Source of the DNA: Parabacteroides sp. ZJ-118
GTDB taxonomy: Bacteria; Bacteroidota; Bacteroidia; Bacteroidales; Tannerellaceae
Reading direction: 5' to 3'
Assembly: GCF_011038785.1 (NCBI RefSeq)
Contig: NZ_JAAKDT010000007.1
Coordinates: forward strand, 1-64,000
DNA length: 64,000 nucleotides
The notes under the pieces: generated by a model
Seen by the model: the letters and a program-made list of their open reading frames with translations, nothing else
What the model was told of the DNA's origin: nothing
Database searches by the model: none
Shown: piece by piece, positions 44,247 to 44,590 of the stretch
How positions within the stretch are numbered: position 1 is the first letter of the stretch
Layout: each line of letters starts with the position of its first letter
Program-made: the position numbers and the translations under genes

Positions 44247-44277
44247 TTTGTTGTATTGGATTTAATACGTACTTTTG
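44247..44277 (+). promoter_or_regulatory. Promoter of the surface-protein locus
   Basis: TTTG (44247-44250), 19 bases, TACTTTTG (44270-44277): exact consensus and spacing. Transcription would start near 44283 and include the leader ORF and the (GCAA)15 tract. Confidence 0.75.
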
Positions 44278-44299
44278 GCCCTTGTATTATGAAAACCAG

Positions 44300-44590
44300 A
44301 TGAAACAGCTTACGATAGATAGTATGTTAACCTTTTTTACCAATATACATTTGGCAAAACGGGATAATTGTGTAGCAAGCAAGCAAGCAAGCAAGCAAGC
44401 AAGCAAGCAAGCAAGCAAGCAAGCAAGCAAGCAAGTAGTATCTACATACAATGTATACGATCCCGCATGCGGAGGATTTCCTCCGCATGCGGGATCGTTG
44501 CGTTTGGAGCAATCCGCGTTATCCCGGGACGGCTTGTCCCTGCGTTCGAAAAGTGATGGAATACATTTATTCAAATTTTTATGCTTATGA
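44300..44590 (+). CDS. Repeat-bearing leader ORF coupled to the LRR gene
   Basis: 96 codons. It begins MKQLTIDSMLTFFTNIHLAK, then five Ser-Lys-Gln-Ala units encoded by (GCAA)15, then a non-repeat tail. Its TGA (44588-44590) overlaps the ATG (44587) of the big LRR gene in an ATGA. With other repeat numbers the frame ends either just after the tract (TAG 44436-44438) or at about 44554-44556 in the third class. The ORF itself resembles no known protein; it may serve only for translational coupling. It might also not be translated; that is the main doubt. Confidence 0.5.
   Translation: MKQLTIDSMLTFFTNIHLAKRDNCVASKQASKQASKQASKQASKQVVSTYNVYDPACGGFPPHAGSLRLEQSALSRDGLSLRSKSDGIHLFKFLCL
44375..44434. 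repeat. Tetranucleotide microsatellite (GCAA)15
   Basis: Fifteen exact GCAA copies, 60 bases, between the promoter and the LRR gene. Long tetranucleotide tracts slip during replication and are a known basis of phase variation. Confidence 0.97.
44457..44498. repeat. 42-base near-perfect palindrome
   Basis: A 20-base arm (44457-44476) containing CCCGCATGCGGAGGA is perfectly complementary to 44479-44498, with a 2-base spacer TT. In RNA this is a very stable hairpin between the microsatellite and the LRR start. There is no T tract directly after it, so it may act as an attenuator, pause or RNA-stability element rather than an ordinary terminator. Confidence 0.9.

Follow-up and report, generated by a model that had tools for sequence, protein, structure and literature searches.

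Introduction

In the contingency loci of Haemophilus, the repeats sit at the beginning of the reading frame that they regulate, and lex2A, a short repeat-bearing open reading frame (ORF) before lex2B, would be the nearer model for a leader coupled to a gene. The accessible text of one study names lex2A itself as the glucosyltransferase (PMC6479036). In the pil1 locus of Streptococcus gallolyticus, GCAGA repeats lie in a leader that stops either before or past a premature terminator, and the available part of that report describes a genetic demonstration of this mechanism that used chloramphenicol and ATG and terminator mutants (PMC3894217). The available text of a 2025 review of phase variation names Bacteroides mostly for inversions, and a search of that text for the terms attenuation, leader, terminator and gallolyticus found none of them (PMC11868660). 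In the transcriptome of Bacteroides thetaiotaomicron, short ORFs in long 5' UTRs have been called reminiscent of attenuating leader peptides, and the accessible portion of the paper does not mention repeats in connection with them (PMC7366714). A search of titles and abstract openings, with most subscription papers and all preprints outside its scope, returned no case of a repeat in a leader from the Bacteroidales. The original prediction for the locus studied here knew of no such translational-coupling design in that order; a close mechanistic precedent exists outside it, in S. gallolyticus pil1.

Here we analysed a stretch of 64,000 nucleotides from Parabacteroides sp. ZJ-118 (hereafter the window), in which a GCAA tract precedes a large LRR gene, and compared the locus with related cassettes in other genomes. 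Judging from the sequences, random ON and OFF switching of surface proteins and of DNA-binding proteins probably occurs in some gut Bacteroidales, with the repeat number deciding whether a ribosome passes a hairpin.

Results

Structure of the window locus

The upstream neighbour of the locus is ilvC, recognized by its Pfam KARI domains, and the parts of the locus itself lie on the forward strand. A consensus promoter had been predicted, and one of Bacteroides type was found by reading the sequence, with a −33-like TTTG box at 44247-44250 and a −7 box, TACTTTTG, of the TAnnTTTG type at 44270-44277 (consensus as given in the accessible text of PMC7366714). A scan of 44100-44700 for sigma-70-type promoters gave one site against 1.0 expected, so only the Bacteroides motif identifies the window promoter. 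The leader ORF begins at ATG 44300, passes through the (GCAA)15 tract (44375-44434, 15 perfect units) and ends on the LRR start at TGA 44588-44590, which gives 96 codons at n = 15 (44300-44590). Between its start codon and the tract lies a conserved core (44321-44374), supported by a core-pattern search and per-site entropy, in which TTAAC, TTTTA, TTGG, TAAT and TAGC blocks stand at fixed spacing. The GCAA tract was the sole period-4 array that Tandem Repeats Finder reported in the window at a minimum score of 40, and the whole assembly contained just two (GCAA)5 tracts, each inside a copy of one cassette, which makes a chance occurrence unlikely. Arrays of a different kind, with 41-bp units, are present at 23738-24021 (6.9 copies, 93% matches) and 59057-59313 (6.2 copies, 95% matches).

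The hairpin expected between tract and gene is a perfect 20-bp inverted repeat (arms 44457-44476 and 44479-44498, 2-base loop) without a T-run, placed as an attenuator would be. The folding energy of the region 44435-44545 is −58.6 kcal/mol, with a z-score of −7.2 relative to 200 shuffled sequences. A terminator scan did not call this hairpin; the scan misses hairpins whose T-run pairs with the stem, and it also missed the hairpin of one member that has a T-run. Three leader stops surround the structure, and which of them is used depends on the number of units, n, as had been predicted. When n mod 3 = 2, the frame meets TAG 44436-44438 just past the tract and 5' of the hairpin, whereas the other two phases stop beyond the hairpin. 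With n mod 3 = 1 the stop is TGA 44554-44556, short of the gene and 24 bases upstream of ATG 44581, and with n divisible by three the frame reaches TGA 44588-44590, which overlaps the LRR ATG at 44587-44589 (ATGA). The ATG at 44581 is an earlier in-frame start of the LRR ORF.

The LRR gene (44581-49050) encodes a protein of 1489 aa with Pfam LRR_4 and a T9SS type A sorting domain (TIGR04183, 27.8 bits, cut-off 23). The next gene begins at 49054, 3 bases past the LRR stop as originally noted, and extends to 52503; domain searches assigned Flg_new_2 repeats and a T9SS sorting domain to this second secreted protein (1149 aa). The tract of the window sits in a separate leader that ends on the LRR start, not inside the LRR coding region.

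The second tract of the genome, (GCAA)14, is on contig C114, in a cassette copy 94.05% identical over 454 bp to window positions 44230-44683. The similarity spans from just 5' of the promoter into the signal peptide, so that promoter, leader, tract, hairpin and signal peptide were duplicated together, and behind the C114 copy lies a C10 protease gene with a Spi-type inhibitor domain. With one unit fewer than the window, the C114 tract is in the closed phase. Directly 5' of this paralogous cassette, an HU-type DNA-binding/DUF4469-like gene was recognized by eye (L009:6112-6882).

Two other candidates were rejected. An invertible promoter was dismissed on finding no flanking inverted repeats of 12 bases or more in 43900-44800, where the only pair was the hairpin itself. 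A known RNA family was set aside as well: Rfam gave one match in 44100-44800, to a fungal U3 snoRNA, whose 26.2 bits fell below the gathering score of 95 and which was taken as noise.

Distribution of the cassette

The core pattern was found at 32 places in 11 of the 123 genomes of the family, all of them within Parabacteroides (11 of 38 genomes); it gave 0 matches in the 15 other genera of the family, 27 of the 38 Parabacteroides genomes had none, and the reversed pattern, used as a control, matched nowhere. An independent DNA-similarity search of the 38 genomes recovered the same 11. Beyond the family, (GCAA)6 occurred in 4 of 393 genomes of the order, one being that of the window while three belonged to other families; the reversed pattern matched 2 genomes. 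In one such family, (GCAA)5 occurred in 4 of 150 genomes (reversed pattern: none). Several of the tracts from other families lie at contig ends and can be read on one flank only; by eye, the readable flanks carried a TAnnTTTG-like motif or a short open frame on the 5' side, or a terminator-like hairpin on the 3' side. Tracts of similar layout were thus present in three other families, with exceptions: L162 has no clear hairpin (z = −1.3), L110 has no near in-frame ATG, and some of these leaders, as judged by eye, have just a few codons or no near in-frame ATG (L129, L110).

Among the Parabacteroides modules, a TAnnTTTG motif stands 103-118 bases 5' of the tract in 27 of 32; it is absent from L075, L085, L093 and the paralogue L108, and L099 begins too near the tract to tell. 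The LRR homologues L012 and L013 have no tract. In five cassettes, L080 (G011), L085 (G023), L091 and L092 (both G026) and L104 (G036), the tract consists of only one or two units. These cassettes appear to be locked, L085 in a phase that crosses the hairpin and the other four in phases that do not. The cassette had no match in a phage collection, and a search of a plasmid collection with a different cassette had none either. A phage origin was rejected, the single pattern match in IMG/VR falling, by its ORFs, in unrelated viral coding sequence.

Leader frame and phase logic

The leader frame contained stops in none of the 32 Parabacteroides cores, and each of the other two frames contained stops in all 32. 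An open in-frame ATG lies 60-99 bases 5' of the tract in 28 of 31 modules (L099, with too little upstream sequence, being omitted), and the three modules without one (L079, L093, L096) have GTG or TTG at a similar distance. The other frames have no open ATG because the core stops there, and the stop and ATG counts are therefore one fact and not two; it is the TTAAC and TAAT blocks that introduce the stop codons. Constraint at the peptide level was sought in the Parabacteroides cores and not found: pN/pS was 0.82 and the codon positions were alike, so we claim no selection on the peptide. The conservation of the leader consists of nucleotide blocks at fixed spacing. Within the core, TTTTACC and GGTRAAA could pair in several members, as judged by eye.

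Altogether 43 modules were collected, of which 36 were usable (27 from the genus and 9 from outside it) and 7 were dropped for too little sequence 3' of the tract. Of the 36, 25 have a single phase that crosses the hairpin (21 of 27 in the genus, 4 of 9 outside), and 33 combine at least one closed phase with at least one crossing phase; in the window and its paralogue, two of the three phases cross. By the criterion used, L104, L111 and L132 have no crossing phase, and for two of them (G272) the stop of the longest phase falls on the hairpin's first base. When the modules were grouped by spacer similarity and one representative was taken from each group, with L162 left out and the hairpin arms of L090 set by homology to L101, the one-in-three pattern held in 13 of 19 clusters against 6.7 ± 1.9 expected from shuffled spacers, and the looser mixed pattern in 18 of 19 against 13.4. 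This excess is a moderate one, as A+T-rich spacers often contain stops, and the clusters are not fully independent of one another.

The hairpins vary in sequence, and their folds had z ≤ −3.0 against shuffles in 21 of 22 representatives. A run of four or more T follows the hairpin in 27 of 36 modules; it is missing from nine, among them every one of the five modules of the LRR/C10 cassette type, to which the window locus belongs. At the LRR locus, compared across four genomes, 19 of 20 apex-anchored stem positions are still paired (G-T allowed) despite base changes.

Downstream genes

In five modules the open phase leads without interruption to a signal-peptide-like stretch and on into a long protein, of which 544-828 aa lie past the tract, so that the tract is inside the coding region of the downstream protein; L093 (149 aa), a sixth candidate for such a fusion, was left uncounted. 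Three of the fused proteins have beta-helix, Big_2, GLUG or B-repeat domains above the Pfam cut-off, and the other two have sub-threshold matches only. Three fused modules have no ATG, GTG or TTG between the tract and the signal-peptide-like stretch, which makes the leader start the most plausible one for them.

A crossing phase and a gene ATG could be matched up in 21 unfused modules, and in 16 of these the crossing-phase stop falls from 30 bases before to 7 bases after that ATG; L075 was counted with its first in-frame ATG rather than with the start given in the annotation of a related strain, and three of the other five pairings (L077, L085, L091) use doubtful ORFs. An ATGA-type overlap is found in 3 of the 21, namely the window, its paralogue and G569:C3 in another family, and in most other unfused modules the open phase stops 5-29 bases 5' of the gene (two at −94 and −131). 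Of the switch as originally predicted, the three-phase tetranucleotide leader before a secreted LRR gene stands, whereas the ATGA overlap is not what recurs. Pfam searches of 18 unfused downstream genes gave eight HU-DNA_bdg with DUF4469, two HU-HIG, one DUF6261, one LRR, one C10 protease, one T9SS tail only and four without a match. In the genus, cassettes are followed by HU-like genes more often than by any other class.

Variation in repeat number

The present phase was tallied for the 25 Parabacteroides modules in which both the tract and the sequence behind it could be read, two with assembly gaps in the tract being excluded; 8 were in a crossing phase (ON) and 17 were not (OFF), against 9.3 ON expected at random phase. 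The nine modules from other families, with less certain leader starts, were kept out of this tally. The phase of the repeat numbers looks unconstrained.

A copy number constant across strains had been named as what would speak against a switch. At the orthologous ilvC-LRR locus, the tract has 17 copies in P. distasonis TSDC17.2-1.1 (NZ_OY725757.1) and 24 in genome G004, a difference between isolates seen in two genomes and at the orthologue of the window rather than at the window itself. On the 5' side of the tract these two genomes agree at 2020 of 2042 aligned bases (98.9%, one gap column) and on the 3' side at 189 of 190. Over a further 3998 bases, G004 is 99% identical to TSDC17.2-1.1, G005 is 94% identical, and neither G023 nor G000 exceeds 92%; by these sequence comparisons G004 is very probably P. 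distasonis as well. As in the window, the locus follows ilvC in NZ_OY725757.1, where the annotated order is ilvD, ilvB, ilvN, a thioesterase gene and ilvC. In this record the leader is annotated as a hypothetical protein, and the product of the LRR gene is described as T9SS type A sorting domain-containing. TSDC17.2-1.1 also has, in the interval from ilvC to the cassette, a gene annotated as a RelE/ParE family toxin and a small adjacent gene (L165:5123-5667).

Discussion

We consider it rather likely that the cassette is a portable phase-variable attenuator, in which read-through past the hairpin depends on the leader frame and stop-start coupling is an extra. A promoter of the sigma-ABfr type would yield an RNA, translation of its short leader would begin at ATG 44300, and slippage would alter the number of GCAA units and shift the leader frame 3' of the tract. 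In a closed phase, the ribosome would halt just past the tract, the hairpin would fold and transcription, or the untranslated RNA, would be lost (OFF); in a crossing phase, the ribosome would melt the hairpin and the transcript would go on (ON). The sequences themselves show the anatomy, the recurrence of leader frame, hairpin and phase logic, and the tract polymorphism in P. distasonis; we infer where transcription begins, that the leader is translated, that transcripts end at the hairpin and that switching takes place in culture. In the window, n mod 3 = 0 would bring the leader to an end on the LRR start, where reinitiation could add expression, and n mod 3 = 1 would allow the hairpin to be crossed with a stop 24 bases short of the gene, likely an intermediate state, so that the predicted set of states is OFF, intermediate and high. 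The window at 15 copies would be ON and the paralogue at 14 copies OFF. The case for attenuation is weaker in the window itself, where the hairpin has no T-run and two phases cross; at this locus the effect may come from an inefficient terminator or from the loss of RNA that is left untranslated.

The original prediction corresponds to pure translational coupling, with constant transcription, LRR protein made only at n mod 3 = 0, and a hairpin that either blocks independent initiation or is incidental. The ATGA overlaps of the window, its paralogue and G569:C3 would suit it, as would the window hairpin without a T-run and the finding that 16 of the 21 pairable unfused modules have a crossing-phase stop from 30 bases before to 7 after the gene ATG. 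We nevertheless regard it as unlikely, because the overlap is not conserved (mostly −5 to −29, and −94 and −131 in two modules), and because coupling leaves unexplained both the T-run hairpins in 27 of 36 modules and the hairpin inside the coding region of five fused genes, where coupling would be needless. The factor common to the modules is whether the leader frame passes the hairpin, not an ATGA overlap, and attenuation is therefore the mechanism that better fits them as a whole, to which coupling would be added locally.

Two further readings do without a decisive leader frame. The tract might be an inert microsatellite that drifts in an untranslated leader before an ordinary hairpin, the genes being driven independently; a leader pN/pS near 1, the modules of one or two units and the three modules without an open phase would all fit. 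Against this stand the leader frame, which is open in all 32 cores and has an ATG where one is expected in 28 of 31 modules, the signal-peptide-like stretch of the fused genes that is reached through the leader, a phase logic exceeding the shuffle expectation, and a cassette that precedes unrelated genes in 11 genomes, and we judge this reading distinctly improbable. Still less credible, and in our view very improbable, is that length and not frame is read, the tract being a variable spacer between the conserved element (TTAAC..TTTTA..TTGG..TAAT) and the hairpin that a protein or an RNA structure senses. Fixed-spacing nucleotide blocks that codon usage leaves unexplained point in that direction, yet frame is decisive in the fused modules, and the other families keep tract and hairpin without the TTAAC, TTTTA and TTGG blocks, as judged by eye.

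Taken more broadly, we propose tentatively that the Bacteroidales possess a portable slipped-repeat attenuator cassette that arose by evolution independent of the streptococcal one and has been copied to sites before unrelated genes, which would give each cell a random choice of surface and HU-like DNA-binding proteins and whose hairpin would have become coding sequence of the secreted protein in one subclass. Single slips could then switch whole regulons, because HU-like DNA-binding proteins may act on other genes. If this is true, a recombinase-free repeat switch that recurs before many genes would be a second route to mixed populations of gut Bacteroidales beside DNA inversion, and whether HU-like DNA-binding proteins are phase-variable regulators would become testable. 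The tract can be scored from ordinary reads that span it, so that isolate and metagenome data can be mined at once.

Comparison with known systems

According to the accessible text of PMC3894217, the cassette resembles S. gallolyticus pil1/pil3 in having short repeats in a leader ORF, a stop set by the frame relative to a stem-loop, surface genes downstream and repeat numbers that differ between isolates. It differs in that pil1 has a pentanucleotide, GCAGA, in a Firmicute with two pilus loci, whereas here the unit is GCAA, the host belongs to the Bacteroidota and the genes are diverse; moreover, unlike pil1 as described in that text, some cassettes are fused in frame and some have a stop-start overlap. 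No sequence relation between pil1 and the GCAA cassette was noticed. The GCAA contingency loci of H. influenzae (lex2A, oafA) share the unit and the one ON number in three, going by the available part of PMC6479036; here, however, the tract lies in a leader with a hairpin before the gene, the five fused modules excepted. With the invertible promoters of the Bacteroidales the cassette shares the order and the phase variation of surface genes (accessible text of PMC11868660), although its promoter has no flanking inverted repeats. As in attenuation of the E. coli trp type, in the summary given in the available text of PMC3894217, a ribosome on the leader would decide whether a terminator forms, but the signal here would be the number of DNA repeats and not the level of an amino acid. 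The kind of mechanism is thus known from one Firmicute, and what is new here is the phylum, the conserved leader, the recurrence of the cassette, the fused subclass and the DNA-binding proteins among the targets.
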